From: Microcystis wesenbergii FACHB-1317
Lineage (GTDB): Bacteria > Cyanobacteriota > Cyanobacteriia > Cyanobacteriales > Microcystaceae
Assembly (NCBI RefSeq): GCF_014696875.1
Contig: NZ_JACJQV010000205.1
Coordinates: forward strand, 1 to 45,120
Direction of reading: 5' to 3'
Length of the DNA stretch: 45,120 bases
Shown here: positions 27,501 through 42,804 of the stretch, one piece after another
Position numbering within the stretch: position 1 is the first letter of the stretch
Layout: every line of letters starts with the position of its first letter
Made by a program: the position numbers and the translations under genes
The notes under the pieces: model-generated
What the model was told of the DNA's origin: nothing
Databases searched by the model: none
The model's input: only the letters and a program-made list of their open reading frames with translations

Positions 27501-27597
27501 TAAGTAGGGAGGCACAATTATTTGTAGGATGGGTTAGCGGTAGCGTAACATGAGCGGGCGTTGGGTTTCATGCTTCAACCCAACCTACGTTCATCTT
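27501..27597. repeat. Dispersed repeat P, copy 1
   Basis: Contains GTAGGATGGGTTAGCGGTAG and GTTGGGTTTCATGCTTCAAC then CCAACCTACG, giving an overall imperfect palindrome. Copies also at 33464-33557 and 38460-38615. Confidence 0.85.
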
Positions 27598-32855: not shown

Positions 32856-33425
32856 TTAATAAATATTACCGAGTATTTCAATTAAAGTTAACTCTATTTC
32901 TGGAAAGGATTCAATAAAAATACTTTCACCTCGATAATATTTCTGCATAGCTTGATAACTACCCTGCAGCGGATGACGATAAACTTCTAAACATTCCTCC
33001 TTGAGATTGATAATCCAAACCTCTTTAATATTTGCTTCCGCATAAAGAGGAATTTTAGTATAGCGAACATAATCGAGGGTAGAATCGGAAACTTCAATAA
33101 TTAAATAGATATCTTGAGGACAAGGATAGGCAGCAACATAAAAATCCGCTCGAGGTATTAGTAAACTTAAATCTGGTTCTGGTTGAGAATTATTATTTAA
33201 TCTAATCGGATTTTGCACTCCTAAGAGAATAAGATCGCCAAATTTTCGATAAAATAACTGAGTTAATCTAGCTATACCAGCAGCATGACGAGTTCCCATC
33301 GGTGACATTTTGATAATTTCTCCTCGAATTAATTCCACTTTTTCATCGGGTTTGATTATTGCCTCGGTTGCCATTTTTTCGTATTCTTCCACCGTAAATT
33401 TACGGGTAATCAGTGATAAAGACAT
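32856..33425 (-). CDS. Uma2 family endonuclease-like protein (copy 1)
   Basis: 189 residues of the DUF820/Uma2 family with a PD-(D/E)XK-type core: LIRGEIIKMSPMG, PEPDLSLL and LIIEVSDSTLDY, which provide the acidic residues, then IKEVWIINL. Such genes are very numerous in cyanobacteria; their role is unknown, though many lie near mobile DNA. It is a tandem paralogue of the gene at 33558-34121 (about 85% identical in protein by eye), both on the minus strand, separated by repeat P. Confidence 0.88.
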   Translation of the reverse strand: MSLSLITRKFTVEEYEKMATEAIIKPDEKVELIRGEIIKMSPMGTRHAAGIARLTQLFYRKFGDLILLGVQNPIRLNNNSQPEPDLSLLIPRADFYVAAYPCPQDIYLIIEVSDSTLDYVRYTKIPLYAEANIKEVWIINLKEECLEVYRHPLQGSYQAMQKYYRGESIFIESFPEIELTLIEILGNIY

Positions 33426-33557: not shown

Positions 33558-34121
33558 CTAAACTCCTAAAATTTCTGCAATAGTGAATTCTATATCGGGA
33601 AAGGATTCAATAAAAACACTTTCACCTCGATAATATTTCTGAATAGCTTGATAACTACCATGCAGAGGATGGCGATAAACTTCTAAACATTCTTCCTTGA
33701 GATTGACAATCCAAACTTCTTGAATATTTGCTTCTGCATAAAGAGGGATTTTAGTATAGCGAACATAATCGAGGGTAGAATCGGAAACTTCAATAATTAA
33801 ATAGATATCTTGAGGACAAGGATAGGCAGCAACATAAAAATCCGCTCGAGGTATTAGTAAACTTAAATCTGGTTCTGGTTGAGAATTATTATTTAATCTA
33901 ATCGGATTTTGCACCCTGAGAATAATTTTCTGTCCTAACTTTTGAGAGAATAATTGTATTAATCTATCTATACCAGCAGCATGACGGGTTCCCATCGGTG
34001 ACATTTTGATAATTTCTCCTCGAATTAATTCCACTTTTTCATCGGGTTTGATTATTCCCTCGGTTGTCATTTTTTCGTATTCTTCCACCGTAAACTTACG
34101 GGTAATCAGCGATAAAGACAT
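33558..34121 (-). CDS. Uma2 family endonuclease-like protein (copy 2)
   Basis: 187 residues, paralogous to the preceding gene, with the same acidic core (PEPDLSLL, LIIEVSDST). Main differences lie at residues ~55-70 (RLIQLFSQKLGQKIILRVQ against RLTQLFYRKFGDLILLGVQ) and at the C-terminus (EFTIAEILGV). The near-identity of long parts suggests a recent duplication followed by local change or gene conversion. Confidence 0.88.
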   Translation of the reverse strand: MSLSLITRKFTVEEYEKMTTEGIIKPDEKVELIRGEIIKMSPMGTRHAAGIDRLIQLFSQKLGQKIILRVQNPIRLNNNSQPEPDLSLLIPRADFYVAAYPCPQDIYLIIEVSDSTLDYVRYTKIPLYAEANIQEVWIVNLKEECLEVYRHPLHGSYQAIQKYYRGESVFIESFPDIEFTIAEILGV

Positions 34122-36665: not shown

Positions 36666-37724
36666 ATGGTAACTACCGTCGAACCCCTCTCCCAGAAAAA
36701 AGCTGTTCTGCGCGAAACTATCCTCACCCCTCGTTTTTACACCACCGATTTTGAGGCTGCCGCTAATTTTGACCTTTCTTTGCAAGAAACCGAAATCAAA
36801 GCGATGTTAGAGGAGATGCGGACCGATTATAACCGGCATCACTTTGAACGTCAGCAAGAATTTGAGAACTATCAAGACAATCTCGATGAAAAAACCAGAA
36901 ACGCCTTTATAGATTACCTAGAACGCTCCTGTATCTCCGAATTTTCTGGCTTTTTGTTATTTAAGGAACTGTCACGACAACTAAAAAGCCGTAATCCCTT
37001 GTTAGGGGAGATATTTCATCTTATGGCTAGAGATGAGGCGCGCCATGCAGGATTTCTCAATAAAGCCATGGCTGACTTTAATATTTCCCTCGATCTAGCC
37101 AAAATTACCAAAACCCGTACCTACACCTTTTTCCCCCTTGAATGGGTATTATATACAGTCTATCTCTCCGAAAAAATCGGTTATTGGCGGTATATCCTCA
37201 TTTATCGTCATTTAGAAGAACATCCAGAGTATAAATTTAATCCTCTTTTTAATTACTTCGAGAGTTGGTGTCAGGACGAAAATCGCCACGGAGATATCTT
37301 TAAAACCTTACTGCGCGCTCAACCGCAATTGTGGAATAATTGGCGATCGAGATTATGGAGTCGTTTTTTCCTGCTTTCCGTCTTTGCTACCCATAGTTTA
37401 ACTGTACGGGAACGCTCAGACTTTTATGATGCTTTAGGAATGGATGCGATCGCTTTTGATCAAGAGGTAATTCGTCAGACTAATAATACCTCCGCTCGCG
37501 CTTTTCCCACCATTTTAAATGTGGACCATCCCCAATTTTTCCCCCGTTTAAACCGTTGTGCCGAACGTAATTTACAATTAAAAGCGATCGATGAAAGTAG
37601 CGTTCCCCAATGGCTAAAAACATTGCGTAAGTTACCCTTACAGTTAGGTATCGTCGGGGATCTATGGCGATTGTATCTGATTAAACCCATAGATGCAGAA
37701 GCCACCAGAGAAATGGTACTTTAA
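36666..37724 (+). CDS. acsF: Mg-protoporphyrin IX monomethyl ester cyclase, aerobic (AcsF)
   Basis: 352 residues of the diiron AcsF family. Iron-ligand motifs are visible: SEFSGFLLFKE (91-101), DEARHAGF (123-130) and DENRHGD (204-210). The enzyme forms the isocyclic ring of chlorophyll using oxygen, acting at the membrane. Cyanobacteria often have two copies, one used at low oxygen; which this is cannot be told from sequence here. It stands alone, followed by heptamer repeats and the coiled-coil array. Confidence 0.96.
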   Translation: MVTTVEPLSQKKAVLRETILTPRFYTTDFEAAANFDLSLQETEIKAMLEEMRTDYNRHHFERQQEFENYQDNLDEKTRNAFIDYLERSCISEFSGFLLFKELSRQLKSRNPLLGEIFHLMARDEARHAGFLNKAMADFNISLDLAKITKTRTYTFFPLEWVLYTVYLSEKIGYWRYILIYRHLEEHPEYKFNPLFNYFESWCQDENRHGDIFKTLLRAQPQLWNNWRSRLWSRFFLLSVFATHSLTVRERSDFYDALGMDAIAFDQEVIRQTNNTSARAFPTILNVDHPQFFPRLNRCAERNLQLKAIDESSVPQWLKTLRKLPLQLGIVGDLWRLYLIKPIDAEATREMVL

Positions 37725-37987: not shown

Positions 37988-38449
37988 ATGTCTAACGAAA
38001 CTGTCACCTATTCCCTTGAATCCGTCCTCAAGGAAATCAAAGATAGCATCAAGGAAGTCAACCAGAAAATGGACACCTTGCAAAGAGATGTCAACCAGAA
38101 AATCGATACCTTGCAACAGGATGTCCATCAGAAAATCGATACCTTGCAAAGAGATGTCAACCAGAAAATCGACACCTTGCAAGGAGATGTCAACCAGAAA
38201 ATCGACACCTTGCAAGGAGATGTAAGTGATTTAAAGGTAGGACAAGCTAAACTAACCGAGAAAGTCGAAGGGATGGATAAAAGACTAGAAAAAGTAGAAA
38301 ACGAGCAATCCACTCTAGTTAAGGCTATTTCTGACCTACAGGGTTTTCGAGGTCTGATTGTCCCTATCCTTATCGGTGCCATGAGTGCCGCTATCGGTGC
38401 AATTATCACTGTTGCGATTAGAATTCTTTTCCTCGGTAACAATCCCTAA
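37988..38449 (+). CDS. Array gene 1: tail-anchored hendecad coiled-coil protein, tail A, 153 aa
   Basis: Constant N-terminus MSNETVTYSLESVLKEIKDS, then five 11-residue units of the NQKIDTLQRDV type (25-79), a common stalk (DLKVGQAKLTEKVEGMDKRL, about 81-100) and a hydrophobic C-terminal helix (about 121-148, GLIVPILIGAMSAAIGAII) ending LGNNP. The 11-residue periodicity fits a right-handed-type coiled coil; the end helix would anchor it in a membrane with the coil in the cytoplasm. Longest member, first of eight in tandem. Function unknown. It shares its stalk and tail almost exactly with gene 5 (39744), which has one unit only. Confidence 0.85.
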   Translation: MSNETVTYSLESVLKEIKDSIKEVNQKMDTLQRDVNQKIDTLQQDVHQKIDTLQRDVNQKIDTLQGDVNQKIDTLQGDVSDLKVGQAKLTEKVEGMDKRLEKVENEQSTLVKAISDLQGFRGLIVPILIGAMSAAIGAIITVAIRILFLGNNP

Positions 38450-38459
38450 AATTCCCCAG

Positions 38460-38615
38460 CACAATTATTTGTAGGATGGCTTAGCGGTAGCGTAACATAA
38501 TCGGGCGTTGGGTTTCATGCTTCAACCGTTCGGACCTCGGCGTGAGACTTCGGCGTGAGATCAGTCGAACGCTCGGTCGAACGCTGATCTCACGGCCGAA
38601 GCCCAACCTACGTTC
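38460..38615. repeat. Dispersed repeat P, copy 3, with a nested insertion
   Basis: Repeat P (as at 27501 and 33464) is interrupted between CTTCAACC and CCCAACC by 74 bases (38528-38601). The insert contains GTGAGATCAG and its exact inverse complement CTGATCTCAC around tandem TCGAACGCT-type units. The element lies between array genes 1 and 2. Confidence 0.8.
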
Positions 38616-38664
38616 TAGAAAGTCACACCCTGAAAACTATTGATAAGTCTAGGAGTTTAGTAAA

Positions 38665-38960
38665 ATGTCACCTATTCCCTTGAATCCGTCCTCAAGGAAA
38701 TCAAAGACAGCATCAAGGATGTCAACCAGAAAATCGATACCCTGCAAAAAGATGTCGATCAGAAAATCGACACCTTGCAAGGAGATGTCACCGAGATAAA
38801 AATAGCCCAAGTAGAAATCAAAAGCGAAGTTAAAGACTTAAAAGAACAGGTTAGAGACATGAAAGGCACTCAAAAAAATCAGATTTGGGCATTAATTACC
38901 CTCTTGGGGGGTTCTTTAATCACCGTCAGTTTGCGAGCGCTATTTAGCAATAATCCCTAA
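38665..38960 (+). pseudogene. Array gene 2: broken member, tail B
   Basis: Normal members begin ATGTCTAACGAAACTGTCAC. Here 13 bases are missing between two TGTC copies, leaving ATGTCACCTATTCC. The ATG is now out of frame, and its frame ends after 44 codons. In the original frame the body is intact: two hendecad units, then VTEIKIAQVEIKSEVKDLK and tail B (QIWALITLLGGSLITVSLRA) ending SNNP at 38960. Only a start inside the frame (for example ATG 38775) could give a shortened product. Confidence 0.85.
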
Positions 38961-39004
38961 AATTCCCAATTTTATCTTAGCCAATAACCCTAGGAGTTTA
39001 GCAA

Positions 39005-39379
39005 ATGTCTAACGAAACTGTCACCTATTCCCTTGAATCGGTCCTTAAGGAAATTAAAGACAGCATCAAGGAAGTCAATCAGAAAATGGACACCTTGCAA
39101 CAGGATGTCAACCAGAAAATCGATACCCTGCAAAAAGATGTCAATCAGAAAATCGATACCCTGCAAAAAGATGTCAATCAGAAAATCGACACCTTGCAAA
39201 AAGATGTCACCGAGATAAAAATAGCCCAAGTAGAAATCAAAAGCGAAGTTAAAGACTTAAAAGAACAGGTTAGAGACATGAAAGGCACTCAAAAAAATCA
39301 AATTTGGGCATTAATTACCCTCTTGGGTGGTTCTTTAATCACCGTCAGTTTGCGAGCGCTATTTACCAATAATCCCTAA
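39005..39379 (+). CDS. Array gene 3: hendecad coiled-coil protein, tail B, 124 aa
   Basis: Constant N-terminus, four NQKIDTLQKDV-type units (25-68), a linker (TEIKIAQVEIKSEVKDLKEQ) and hydrophobic tail B (about 100-119, ending LFTNNP). Start ATG 39005 with AGGAG 8 bases upstream in a leader (CCAATTTTATCTTAGCCAAT) shared with genes 4 and 5. It is 33 residues (three units) longer than gene 4 and otherwise nearly identical, so unit number is the variable. Function unknown. Confidence 0.85.
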   Translation: MSNETVTYSLESVLKEIKDSIKEVNQKMDTLQQDVNQKIDTLQKDVNQKIDTLQKDVNQKIDTLQKDVTEIKIAQVEIKSEVKDLKEQVRDMKGTQKNQIWALITLLGGSLITVSLRALFTNNP

Positions 39380-39423
39380 AATTCCCAATTTTATCTTAGC
39401 CAATAACCCTAGGAGTTTAGCAA

Positions 39424-39699
39424 ATGTCTAACGAAACTGTCACCTATTCCCTTGAATCGGTTCTTAAGGAAATTAAAGACAGCATCAAGGATGTCAATCA
39501 GAAAATGGACACCTTGCAAAAAGATGTCACCGAGATAAAAATAGCCCAAGCAGAAATCAAAAGCGAAGTTAAAGACTTAAAAGAACAGGTTAGAGACATG
39601 AAAGGCACTCAAAAAAATCAAATTTGGGCATTAATTACCCTCTTGGGTGGTTCTTTAATCACCGTCAGTTTGCGAGCGCTATTTACCAATAATCCCTAA
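39424..39699 (+). CDS. Array gene 4: hendecad coiled-coil protein, tail B, 91 aa
   Basis: Shortest tail-B member: constant N-terminus, a single unit (NQKMDTLQKDV), then the same linker and tail B as gene 3 (one difference, AQAEIK for AQVEIK). Same leader and AGGAG ribosome-binding site. Direct comparison with gene 3 shows a clean loss or gain of three 33-base units without frame change. Confidence 0.85.
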   Translation: MSNETVTYSLESVLKEIKDSIKDVNQKMDTLQKDVTEIKIAQAEIKSEVKDLKEQVRDMKGTQKNQIWALITLLGGSLITVSLRALFTNNP

Positions 39700-39743
39700 A
39701 ATTCCCAATTTTATCTTAGCCAATAACCCTAGGAGTTTAGCAA

Positions 39744-40073
39744 ATGTCTAACGAAACTGTCACCTATTCCCTTGAATCCGTCCTTAAGGAAATTAAAGAC
39801 AGCATCAAGGAAGTCAATCAGAAAATCGATACTTTGCAAAGAGATGTAAATGATTTAAAGGTAGGACAAGCTAAACTAACCGAGAAAGTCGAAGGGATGG
39901 ATAAAAGACTAGAAAAAGTAGAAAACGAGCAATCCACTCTAGTTAAGGCTATTTCTGACCTACAGGGTTTTCGAGGTCTGATTGTCCCTATCCTTATCGG
40001 TGCCATGAGTGCCGCTATCGGTGCAATTATCACTGTTGCTATCCGAATTCTTTTCCTCGGTAACAATCCCTAA
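39744..40073 (+). CDS. Array gene 5: hendecad coiled-coil protein, tail A, 109 aa
   Basis: Constant N-terminus, one unit (NQKIDTLQRDV), then the stalk and tail A of gene 1 with nearly no change at DNA level. It is 44 residues (four units) shorter than gene 1. Its leader is that of the tail-B genes 3 and 4, while its tail is that of gene 1. The gene is therefore a mosaic of two neighbours. Confidence 0.85.
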   Translation: MSNETVTYSLESVLKEIKDSIKEVNQKIDTLQRDVNDLKVGQAKLTEKVEGMDKRLEKVENEQSTLVKAISDLQGFRGLIVPILIGAMSAAIGAIITVAIRILFLGNNP

Positions 40074-40131
40074 AATTCTCCAGTCTCACACCCCGAAAAG
40101 AAAACTATTGATAACTTTAGGAGTTTAGCAA

Positions 40132-40443
40132 ATGTCTAACGAAACCGTCACCTATTCCCTAGAAGCTGTCCTAACCAGGATTGAGAGTAAAATCGACTCC
40201 CTTGAAAAACGCATGAATGAGAGATTTGACAAGGTAGAGGACCGGCTAACCAAAGTAGAAATCGGACAGGCCGAACTCAAGGCCGAGTTAAAAGGCAATA
40301 TTAAAGTATTAGACGAGAAAATCGAGGGATTAACGGCACGGGTTGGTTATCAGGAGTTCACCAACCGGGGGATTCTGATAGCTTTGGTGGTCGCTGTCTT
40401 GGGAGGCGCTGCTAAACTTTTTGGTTTTTTCCCCAATCCCTAG
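40132..40443 (+). CDS. Array gene 6: coiled-coil protein, tail C, 103 aa
   Basis: N-terminus MSNETVTYSLEAVLTRIESK, coiled-coil units KIDSLEKRMNE and RFDKVEDRLTKVE, a linker (IGQAELKAELKGNIKVLDEK) and tail C (about 80-99, RGILIALVVAVLGGAAKLFG) ending FFPNP. Leader like that of gene 2 (AAACTATTGATAA, AGGAG). First of three tail-C members. A decayed copy of this tail lies at 9126-9191. Confidence 0.85.
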   Translation: MSNETVTYSLEAVLTRIESKIDSLEKRMNERFDKVEDRLTKVEIGQAELKAELKGNIKVLDEKIEGLTARVGYQEFTNRGILIALVVAVLGGAAKLFGFFPNP

Positions 40444-40529
40444 AACTGGCTCCTAGGCAAGGCTAGAGGCCTTATGATCATAATAAATGGCCGCTCAAAA
40501 ACCCGAAAACCCCATAGGACTATAGCAAA

Positions 40530-40874
40530 ATGTCTAACGAAACCGTCACCTATTCCCTAGAAGCTGTCCTAACCAGAATTGAGAGTAAAATCGACTCTCT
40601 GGAAAAACGGATGGATGAGAAAATCGACTCCCTTGAAAAACGCATGAATGAGAGATTTGACAAGGTAGAGGACCGGCTAACCAAAGTAGAAATCGGACAG
40701 GCCGAACTCAAGGCCGAGTTAAAAGGCAATATTAAAGTATTAGACGAGAAAATCGAGGGATTAACGGCACGGGTTGGTTATCAGGAGTTCACCAACCGGG
40801 GGATTCTGATAGCTTTGGTGGTCGCTGTCTTGGGAGGCGCTGCTAAACTTTTTGGTTTTTTCCCCAATCCCTAG
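40530..40874 (+). CDS. Array gene 7: coiled-coil protein, tail C, 114 aa
   Basis: Same as gene 6 but with one extra 11-residue unit (KIDSLEKRMDE), hence 114 against 103 residues. The rest, including tail C and the sequence after the stop, is nearly identical. Its leader (ATAATAAATGGCCGCTC) is the one found before gene 1 and gene 8. Confidence 0.85.
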   Translation: MSNETVTYSLEAVLTRIESKIDSLEKRMDEKIDSLEKRMNERFDKVEDRLTKVEIGQAELKAELKGNIKVLDEKIEGLTARVGYQEFTNRGILIALVVAVLGGAAKLFGFFPNP

Positions 40875-40959
40875 AACTGGCTCCTAGGCAAGGCTAGAGG
40901 CCTTATGATCATAATAAATGGCCGCTCAAAAACCCGAAAACCCCATAGGAGTATAGCAA

Positions 40960-41325
40960 ATGTCTAACGAAACCGTCACCTATTCCCTAGAAGCTGTCCT
41001 AACCAGAATTGAGAGTAAAATCGACTCTCTGGAAAAACGGATGGATGAGAAAATCGACTCCCTTGAAAAGCGGATGAATGAGAGATTTGACAAGGTAGAT
41101 GAGAGATTTGACAAGGTAGAGGACCGGCTAACCAAAGTAGAAATCGGACAGGCCGAACTCAAGGCCGAGTTAAAAGGCGATATTAAAGTATTAGACGAGA
41201 AAATCGAGGGATTAACGGCACGGGTTGGTTATCAGGAGTTCACCAACCGGGGGATTCTCATCGCTTTAGTGGTTGCTGTTTTAGGAGGTGCTGCTAAACT
41301 TTTTGGTTTTTTCCCCAATCCCTAG
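40960..41325 (+). CDS. Array gene 8: coiled-coil protein, tail C, 121 aa
   Basis: As gene 7 with seven further residues (RFDKVDE inserted before RFDKVED), so here the increment is one heptad instead of one hendecad. Tail C is intact. Last complete member of the array. About 130 bases separate it from the first pilin gene. The last ~50 bases use different synonymous codons from genes 6 and 7. Confidence 0.85.
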   Translation: MSNETVTYSLEAVLTRIESKIDSLEKRMDEKIDSLEKRMNERFDKVDERFDKVEDRLTKVEIGQAELKAELKGDIKVLDEKIEGLTARVGYQEFTNRGILIALVVAVLGGAAKLFGFFPNP

Positions 41326-41458: not shown

Positions 41459-41983
41459 ATGAACTCTACTTTCAAATTCAAACTCATCCAAGCTCTCAAC
41501 AAAAAGAACGGTAACAAAGGTTTCACCCTCATCGAACTCCTAGTTGTCGTTATCATCATCGGTGTACTCGCCGCCATCGCTCTCCCCAACCTCCTCGGTC
41601 AGGTAGCCAAAGGCAGACAAGCGGAAGCTCGCAACAACTTAGGTACCGTTAACCGCGCTCAACAAGCTTACCGCTTGGAAAACGCCACCTTTGGTCTTAT
41701 TGGTAACTTACCTGTCGTCACCACCTCTACCTACTATAGCAACGTTGCTGGTGGTGCTACCAGTGCTGTTGGTGCAGAGCACTCTGCCACAGCTAACGAT
41801 ACTTATACAAACGATATTCTCGATTACGGTTCTGCTGTTGGTCAACAACAGGACGGTACTTACAGTGCTGTTATCTGTGAACAAACCACTAACCCCAGTG
41901 CTACCGTAGACCCAGGTGATTTAACTACCCCGGGTACTGCTACTGCACGCGCAGCTTGTAACAACGCTCGTGAGATCAAGTAA
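41459..41983 (+). CDS. pilA: Type IV pilin-like protein (1)
   Basis: 174 residues with a prepilin leader cut at NKG21/F22: FTLIELLVVVIIIGVLAAIALPN, including the glutamate at position +5. The globular part ends with two cysteines (VICEQTT and RAACNN) that could form the pilin disulfide loop. Pilins build type IV pili for motility, adhesion or DNA uptake. A second, diverged pilin gene follows. GGGAG-like ribosome-binding signals are not clear. Confidence 0.93.
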   Translation: MNSTFKFKLIQALNKKNGNKGFTLIELLVVVIIIGVLAAIALPNLLGQVAKGRQAEARNNLGTVNRAQQAYRLENATFGLIGNLPVVTTSTYYSNVAGGATSAVGAEHSATANDTYTNDILDYGSAVGQQQDGTYSAVICEQTTNPSATVDPGDLTTPGTATARAACNNAREIK

Positions 41984-42297: not shown

Positions 42298-42804
42298 ATG
42301 AAATACCTTCTTTTTTCAGCAATCAAATCACAGGAAAAAAAAGCGAGGGGTTTTACTTTAATAGAATTGTTAGTAGTGGTGATTTTATTGGGAGTTCTCG
42401 CTGCCATCAGTTTACCCACTCTGTTAGGACAAGTCGCCAAAGGTAGGCAAGCAGAAGCTAGAGTCGCTCTCGGTTTGATCAATCGCGCCCAACAGGGTTA
42501 TCGTTATGAAAAAGGGACTTTTGGTCGTTTGTCTGACCTATCTCTGGAAGTTGGCAGTAGTTCCCTAAAATTCTATAATATCAGCGACGTAGGAAGTCCC
42601 GATGCTTTTGGAGCCGCCTATCAAGGGAATGCTGTGACTCAATTTGCTGACGAGATTAAAAATTATGCAGGGGCAGCCGGACAAACGGCAGCGGGGGCCT
42701 ATACCGGTATTATTTGTGAGGATGAAACTCCTTTAGAAGATAATGTTTCTACCAGTAATTCCGCCGGCATTCTTAGCTGTGTTGATGGCATTAGAATTAA
42801 TTAA
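42298..42804 (+). CDS. Type IV pilin-like protein (2)
   Basis: 168 residues with prepilin motif RG18/FTLIELLVVVILLGVLAAISLPT (cleavage after G18, glutamate at +5). Shares GQVAKGRQAEAR and NRAQQ with the preceding pilin and also ends with two cysteines (IICEDE and LSCVDG). Codon use is more A/T-rich than in pilin 1, which is rich in C-ending codons. That suggests pilin 1 is more highly expressed or that the two have different histories. Confidence 0.92.
   Translation: MKYLLFSAIKSQEKKARGFTLIELLVVVILLGVLAAISLPTLLGQVAKGRQAEARVALGLINRAQQGYRYEKGTFGRLSDLSLEVGSSSLKFYNISDVGSPDAFGAAYQGNAVTQFADEIKNYAGAAGQTAAGAYTGIICEDETPLEDNVSTSNSAGILSCVDGIRIN

Follow-up and report, generated by a model that had tools for sequence, protein, structure and literature searches.

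A coiled coil followed by a C-terminal membrane anchor is the plan of DUF1640 (MCUR1-CCDC90) proteins, and in lambda RexB and the other exclusion genes of cI operons a membrane protein gene lies beside the prophage repressor gene. The Bdr proteins of Borrelia contain units of 11 residues, the number of which varies. According to two papers, they are inner-membrane proteins carried on plasmids and prophages, and their function is still unknown (PMC10016077, PMC4370689); the second paper calls them unique to Borrelia (PMC4370689). Vesicle release is reported to have required XhlA along with XhlB and XlyA (PMC5589764). Here we compare with these systems an array of small coiled-coil genes from Microcystis wesenbergii FACHB-1317. 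The window, i.e. the whole stretch of 45,120 nucleotides that was analysed, is contig C119 of a draft genome of 5.04 Mb in 248 contigs, and its open reading frames and sequence reveal eight units arranged head-to-tail at positions 37988-41325. The best overall explanation, to which we give a probability of about 55%, is that this array is one locus of a large, apparently unnamed cyanobacterial family of small tail-anchored coiled coils, the modules of which are reshuffled between copies. The anatomy and the mode of change of the family are well supported, and its function is unproven. Comparison of the copies at the DNA level shows them to be under purifying selection and to differ by tandem duplication, by gain or loss of 33-base units and by recombination between leader and tail.

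Each protein would consist of three modules. The first is a fixed box of some 11 residues at the N-terminus, the second a helical stalk made of 11-residue (and some 7-residue) units, and the third a C-terminal membrane tail belonging to one of at least four classes in the family. Two leader types were distinguished, K (VLKEIK) and T (VLTRIE). The eight units of the window are the following (aa, amino acids):

37988..38449, plus strand: gene 1, 153 aa, leader K, five 11-residue units, tail A
38665..38960, plus strand: gene 2, disrupted copy, tail B by its frame
39005..39379, plus strand: gene 3, 124 aa, leader K, four units, tail B
39424..39699, plus strand: gene 4, 91 aa, leader K, one unit, tail B
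39744..40073, plus strand: gene 5, 109 aa, leader K, upstream DNA as in gene 4, tail A; mosaic
40132..40443, plus strand: gene 6, 103 aa, leader T, tail C
40530..40874, plus strand: gene 7, 114 aa, leader T, tail C
40960..41325, plus strand: gene 8, 121 aa, leader T, tail C

The N-terminus MSNETVTYSLE, which a first, sequence-only reading of this DNA had attributed to all eight paralogues, is present in the seven intact genes (starting at 37988, 39005, 39424, 39744, 40132, 40530, and 40960), each of which has its own AGGA-type sequence upstream. Gene 2 does not share it: a deletion of 13 bases after the ATG puts the start out of frame, a stop codon directly precedes the coding frame, and there is no in-frame intact N-terminus. 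In the final 75 bases of the intact genes, seven in all, tail DNA is 0.91-1.00 identical within a class and 0.37-0.44 identical between classes, which groups genes 1 and 5 (A), genes 3 and 4, with gene 2 by its frame (B), and genes 6, 7, and 8 (C). The lengths of the intact proteins (153, 124, 91, 109, 103, 114, and 121 aa) differ by exactly 44, 33, 11, and 7 residues, as the unit multiples proposed earlier require, and the 11-residue steps mirror direct repeats of 33 base pairs (bp) in the DNA. Gene 5 had been called a mosaic, and this holds. Its leader DNA is 0.98 identical to that of gene 3, 0.95 to that of gene 4, and 0.94 to that of gene 1, and its 60 upstream bases are the same as those of gene 4 and one base off those of gene 3, whereas its tail is 0.96 identical to that of gene 1 and 0.40 to that of gene 3. 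As the leaders of genes 5 and 1 differ little, the mosaic claim is carried by the tail and the upstream DNA.

The family extends throughout the genus. The DNA of gene 3 finds matches in all 12 Microcystis genomes, the window's own included; with the low pN/pS given below, this marks the array as more than a chance feature. A profile built from 16 members finds 52 matches in the window's genome (some being two pieces of one gene), 21 in G011, 36 in G010, 45 in G001, and 15 in G002. Based on sequence patterns, we parsed 100 members at 52 of 60 loci in seven genomes, which fall into 21 locus groups defined by common flanking genes: 29 members in G001, 24 in G000, 22 in G010, 13 in G011, nine in G002, two in G005, and one in G003, with one locus read in each of the last two. 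Eight loci (L117, L123, L124, L138, L139, L140, L153, and L154) yielded no member by the patterns used, and the member counts are therefore lower bounds. Setting aside seven members without a recognised leader or A-D tail and four identical copies leaves 89 distinct members. In all 89, an E and a T precede the V[TS]YSL motif, which was itself required for inclusion, so that the conservation of its five residues is partly by construction; the E, the T and the synonymous variation are independent of this requirement. The V of the box is encoded by four codons and the L by five; because these codons vary synonymously, the constancy of the box lies at the protein level. With respect to the tails, the three classes previously described as unrelated are indeed distinct (0.37-0.44 between them), but they follow a common plan, with an ending in N-P (60 of 89) or N-I (10 of 89) in 70 of the 89 distinct members.

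Leaders and tails occur in many combinations. The 100 parsed members comprise 23 KB, 21 TC, 14 TB, 12 TA, 10 KA, 7 TD, and 6 KC combinations, with 7 unassigned; both leaders are thus found with tails A, B, and C, and tail D with T only. Pairwise comparison of the 89 distinct members (3916 pairs) gives 40 pairs in which leader DNA is at least 93% identical and the tail class differs, 43 in which tail DNA is at least 93% identical and the leader type differs, and 97 in which leader and tail both reach 93% identity. At the window's locus in G001, a K leader stands on a C tail in three genes, and at one orthologous locus the tail DNA of L072 is 0.97 identical to that of L151 and L136, with a leader identity of 0.55. 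We take these swapped combinations as direct signs of recombination or gene conversion inside the family. Regarding stalk length, 110 of the 166 differing pairs within a locus group, tail and leader class (93 members) differ by a multiple of 11 residues, as do 41 of 72 pairs when each length is counted once; such pairs are not independent, and the 33-bp direct repeats make 11-residue steps mechanically likely. Other steps include 4 residues (12 pairs) and 7 residues (5 pairs), and some of the exceptions are due to altered or truncated ends, e.g. in members of 102, 104, and 115 aa.

The window's locus itself was compared by means of its flanks and the DNA between its units:

36666..37724, plus strand: upstream flank, Rubrerythrin-domain protein
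38459..38500, no strand assigned: piece of a dispersed repeat, between genes 1 and 2
41459..41983, plus strand: downstream flank, type IV pilin-like protein (Pilin_GH, N_methyl)

We take the upstream flank to be AcsF-like; the product of the downstream flank matches Pilin_GH and the N-terminal methylation motif. Over eight Microcystis genomes, the copy number at this locus ranges from 0 to 9. There are eight units in G000 (seven intact), nine in G010, two in G005, two in G003 (one truncated), and, in G001, five units that retain a start, one of them truncated, along with a fragment of a tail. G010 lacks the upstream flank gene but retains the pilin genes and the flank on the far side of the missing gene. 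In G011, G002, and G007 the stretch adjoining the upstream flank contains no member, and the whole-genome match lists of G011 and G002 show none near the other flank either. The remaining four of the 12 genomes stand outside this comparison, G006 and G008 on account of contig ends and G004 and G009 on account of the lack of a close match to the upstream flank. The idea of an actively recombining, diversifying family thus survives the comparison across strains: gene number, unit number, and tail order differ between genomes, counts run from 0 to 9, and G011 has no array at this locus. Presence or absence within the species is judged from a sample of two, as the comparison includes a single further genome of it, G011.

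Some further features of the locus were observed. The dispersed repeat at 38459-38500 recurs at 27512-27551, and the end of a gene 1 query covering it matches at least 33 other places in the genome; no inverted repeat was detected between genes 1 and 2 by the scan used. A second pilin-like gene, at 42298-42804, lies near the downstream flank and resembles it by eye. In G011, an insert carrying transposon-like and presumably TnpB-like genes (L069:13824-15278) splits a flank gene of the locus close to the 3' end of that gene.

The family genes are maintained, since the ratio of nonsynonymous to synonymous differences (pN/pS) is far below 1 in each module: across 39 ortholog-like pairs, it is 0.05 in the N-terminus, 0.16 in the coil, and 0.07 in the tail (last 32 residues). 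These values bear on an explanation that we consider unlikely but by no means negligible, namely that the variety is largely neutral, arising by duplication, gene conversion, and slippage on 33-bp repeats, and that the exact stalk length is meaningless. The direct repeats alone would yield in-frame steps of 11 residues, the coil is the least constrained module, and broken copies exist (gene 2 and one unit in G003). Nevertheless, the pN/pS of the coil is still far below 1 and the ends are strongly conserved, which indicates selection on the proteins even if not on their exact length.

All seven intact window proteins have a hydrophobic segment that ends 4-11 residues from the C-terminus, with a best 19-residue Kyte-Doolittle mean of 1.79-2.34. 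An AlphaFold2 monomer model of gene 7 (30 alignment rows) consists of one helix over residues 3-107, with a mean predicted local distance difference test score (pLDDT) of 83.9 and a predicted template modelling score (pTM) of 0.45. An N-terminal beta-strand cap, considered on the basis of the V-x-Y-x-L pattern, was rejected for the monomer, which is modelled as helical from residue 3; a cap might form in an oligomer. In the reshuffled tail-anchored family that we favour, the N-terminus would be cytoplasmic and the tail would lie in the membrane. The stalks would probably form parallel oligomers that present the constant box to one shared partner at varying distances, and the tail may determine which membrane partner or oligomer a protein joins.

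Such an arrangement could also serve as a scaffold or spacer that organises a membrane, be it that of the cell or that of the thylakoids; the length of the stalk would then set a distance, and the carriage on prophages and plasmids would be accidental. We regard this as a serious possibility that falls short of being probable. Members mostly stand alone at positions conserved across species, their ends are conserved and their middle is variable, and copy numbers are large within one genus. However, no recurrent neighbour points to membrane organisation, and the XRE operons and recombinase neighbours described below would be left unexplained. Between different Microcystis loci, in fact, no neighbour recurs apart from the flanks of one place that was split into two groups, as far as clustering of proteins of at least 120 aa at more than 75% identity can tell.

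Relatives are also common beyond the genus. Profile A1 matches at least 78 of 291 genomes of the order at E ≤1e-8. Profile A4, built from Synechocystis-type relatives, matches at least 117 of 388 genomes of the order. In a sample of the phylum, profile A2 matches at least 39 of 386 genomes at E ≤1e-6, 37 of them in the order and two elsewhere in the class. The N-terminal box of the relatives has the form TVTYSLEEVL or TIETDLKEIL and their tails are recognisable by eye as A, B or C; the tail classes therefore seemingly predate Microcystis. Tandem sets occur outside Microcystis as well, with three members at L184 and two at L183. The genus-wide and order-wide spread of the family, mostly as stand-alone genes, was invisible to the sequence-only reading, the observation of which proved largely right and is partly confirmed here, with partial support for its interpretation.

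Contexts that point to mobile elements are found in G018, which belongs to the same taxonomic family. Here members lie directly downstream of a same-strand XRE gene in two prophage-like regions; the regulators match HTH_3 and HTH_19 above the cut-off. Region 1 has an integrase gene beside a tRNA-Met gene and a DnaB-type helicase. Region 2 (L215:609-19903 and L216:1-5321) extends from tRNA-Phe (GAA), past an endolysin-like gene, to an integrase gene, and holds two tandem members behind the XRE gene together with a VapE/D5-type helicase. A similar element has been published: prophage Psy1 of Synechocystis PCC 6714, inserted in trnF (GAA), is otherwise silent, and only an XRE repressor gene and the gene of a protein with 47% identity to Ssl7074 are significantly expressed, as the authors report from unpublished data (PMC4060947). 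By its position, Ssl7074 is equated with a gene annotated as 'hemolysin XhlA family protein' on plasmid pSYSA of Synechocystis PCC 6803, one of two convergent members (SGL_RS00975 and SGL_RS00980) located beside cas1-cas2 (L156:4001-4642).

Other members lie beside recombinases. A Pfam Phage_integrase gene or fragment adjoins a member at five loci (L116, L158, L182, L195, and L205). At L116:3998-5351, on a second contig (7.6 kb) of G011, a tail-D member is directly upstream of a tyrosine recombinase; L158 is the Gloeothece plasmid pP742405; at L205:1489-2095 and L195:1492-2212, in two further genomes, members adjoin pieces of phage-integrase-type genes. A ParA-type ATPase gene is found near L205 and L094. 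Relatives of the L116 recombinase are present in 497 plasmid records, and one plasmid member used as a query found only two Gloeothece records. Among viral sequences, 78 IMG/VR stretches match a sequence pattern and one encodes a relative, a tail-D member adjoining a very long, coiled-coil-rich gene that is tape-measure-like by eye; gene 4 gave no match to phage records at E ≤0.01. Two general partners were considered and rejected. No general linkage to a tyrosine recombinase emerges from these plasmid counts, and at two of the five linked loci only a fragment of a recombinase is present. An XRE repressor was seen, among the loci read, only in G018, in a count that can be too low because the picking of neighbouring genes missed an overlapping XRE gene at L174 and L186.

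The most specific role that we can suggest for the family, tentatively and as a rather unlikely one, is that of a single-gene membrane exclusion or immunity factor that prophages and plasmids carried about and that became multi-copy in Microcystis. The rest of the probability goes to a general membrane-scaffold role or to functionless variety. This lead comes from two or three prophage-like elements that place members in a repressor module, from the one published case in which the XRE/member pair is almost all that is expressed, and from the members beside recombinases or cas1-cas2. Phage exclusion had been one of the options named from the sequence, and it has gained some independent support from relatives in prophage-like repressor operons (G018 and PMC4060947), but no such context was found in Microcystis. 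It is improbable, in our estimate, that a prophage-derived exclusion protein multiplied in Microcystis into a genome-wide, reshuffled repertoire that creates lineage-specific barriers to phage entry.

Several observations weigh against the exclusion role and, in part, against the broader reading of the family. The chief one is that, among neighbours of at least 120 aa clustered at more than 75% identity, no XRE, phage, or defence gene was found to recur beside the Microcystis members. Most of the 47 loci outside Microcystis (38 distinct proteins) lie, by eye, between unrelated genes, and the prophage cases all come from Synechocystis-type genomes. The large genes of the G018 regions have few or no PHROG or Pfam matches, so that the term prophage-like relies on the integrase, tRNA, helicase, endolysin-like, and XRE parts. 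Psy1 may be the same as, or a sister of, G018 region 2, with which it shares the tRNA-Phe (GAA) gene, a VapE/D5-type gene, and an XRE pair, and the prophage cases are accordingly counted as two or three. The authors themselves interpret the Ssl7074-like protein as having a partial endoribonuclease Y domain, and a figure legend gives it a remote likeness to Cro repressor (PMC4060947). Four window proteins compared with PADLOC gave partial coiled-coil matches, the best at 28.8 bits, and no full-length match to a defence model. Finally, both protein ends are under purifying rather than positive selection, and just one further genome of the same species was compared.

With regard to known families, Pfam (six window proteins), NCBIfam (five), PHROGs (five), and PADLOC (four) contain no specific family for the proteins given, in agreement with the earlier suggestion of a possibly undescribed system. 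The matches in NCBIfam, PHROGs, and PADLOC are low-scoring, mostly partial, and of coiled-coil type, and solved structures give generic coiled-coil matches only (best E 0.0005). Literature searches found nothing on MSNETVTY, on Microcystis with hemolysin XhlA, or on tandem coiled-coil paralogues of Microcystis. Genes 1 and 5 slightly exceed the cut-off of the baculovirus family NPV_P10 (30.3 and 35.6 vs 29.8), which was taken as a chance likeness of coils.

The commonest Pfam match is XhlA (PF10779), found for 46 of 49 members at E ≤0.01, and gene 4 (37.2) and the pSYSA protein P0002 (37.6) pass its gathering score of 34.7. It is nevertheless very unlikely that the family consists of XhlA-type accessory proteins of phage lysis. 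Gene 4 is the only one of six window proteins above the cut-off, and its match starts at residue 16, behind the constant box. Genes 3, 5, 6, and 8 stay below it with 29.6, 19.6, 23.8, and 24.9 bits, and XhlA is absent from the top 25 Pfam matches of gene 1. Tail pieces score 16.2 (gene 4) or nothing (tails A and C). One G018 region does contain an endolysin-like gene at some 12 kb from its members, but no lysis cassette was recognised beside a member, and no lysis gene recurs among the neighbours of Microcystis members, which were read by eye and mostly not profiled.

Homology to the Borrelia Bdr proteins is less likely still, and we consider it highly improbable. The family has a Bdr-like architecture, being multi-copy, variable in unit number, and equipped with a predicted membrane anchor, and proteins of both groups combine KID-type units of 11 residues with a hydrophobic segment at the C-terminus. 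At E ≤1e-3, gene 8 matches 35 Borrelia and 10 Borreliella plasmid records, several of which are annotated as Bdr; in this search, the alignments of the cyanobacterial relatives end at residue 97 as well, and it therefore does not by itself separate Bdr from relatives. In a BLASTP comparison with one B. bissettiae Bdr, the best segment covers only residues 10-73 of gene 8, and a weak third segment extends to residue 107. This Bdr lacks the N-terminal box, whereas a pSYSA relative used as a control aligns with gene 8 over residues 1-120. Moreover, gene 8 stays under the cut-off for the KID repeat (PF02524; 17.6 vs 20.8 bits), which is outside the top 25 for the other five proteins, and gene 5 finds no Borrelia record. 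The likeness to Bdr, which had been presented as analogy only, is thus best left as such. One Campylobacter plasmid match of gene 8 carries a DUF1640 label.

Elsewhere in the window, two neighbouring, closely similar genes on the minus strand (32856-33425 and 33558-34121) look by eye like a recent duplication; we assume that they are Uma2-like.

Through this array a family becomes visible that curated libraries either overlook or label vaguely as 'hemolysin XhlA'. In the five most fully read Microcystis genomes, between 9 and 29 copies of it were parsed per genome. As its stalks vary naturally by one 11-residue unit at a time between fixed ends, the effect of stalk length in membrane-anchored coiled coils can be tested with it. 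If the prophage link is true, the family would bear on the phage resistance of bloom-forming cyanobacteria and, by analogy, on the open question of Bdr function in Borrelia.

Compared with the known systems, the family resembles XhlA of the PBSX prophage of Bacillus subtilis in the combination of a short coiled coil with a membrane segment at the C-terminus. It differs by its constant N-terminal box, its repeated 11-residue units, its several tail classes, and the absence of a recognised lysis cassette. DUF1640 (MCUR1-CCDC90) shares the plan of a coiled coil with a C-terminal anchor, but it is outside the top 25 Pfam matches of all six window proteins. Lambda RexB is comparable by gene position: in the G018 regions and in Psy1 a membrane protein gene lies beside a repressor gene, whereas the Microcystis copies showed no repressor neighbour. 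The Borrelia Bdr proteins are similarly multi-copy, with 11-residue KID-type units of varying number, a hydrophobic C-terminal segment, and carriage on plasmids and prophages. In contrast, their likeness to the present family lies chiefly in the coil, and the family copies read here are mostly chromosomal, with tails that are swapped between them.

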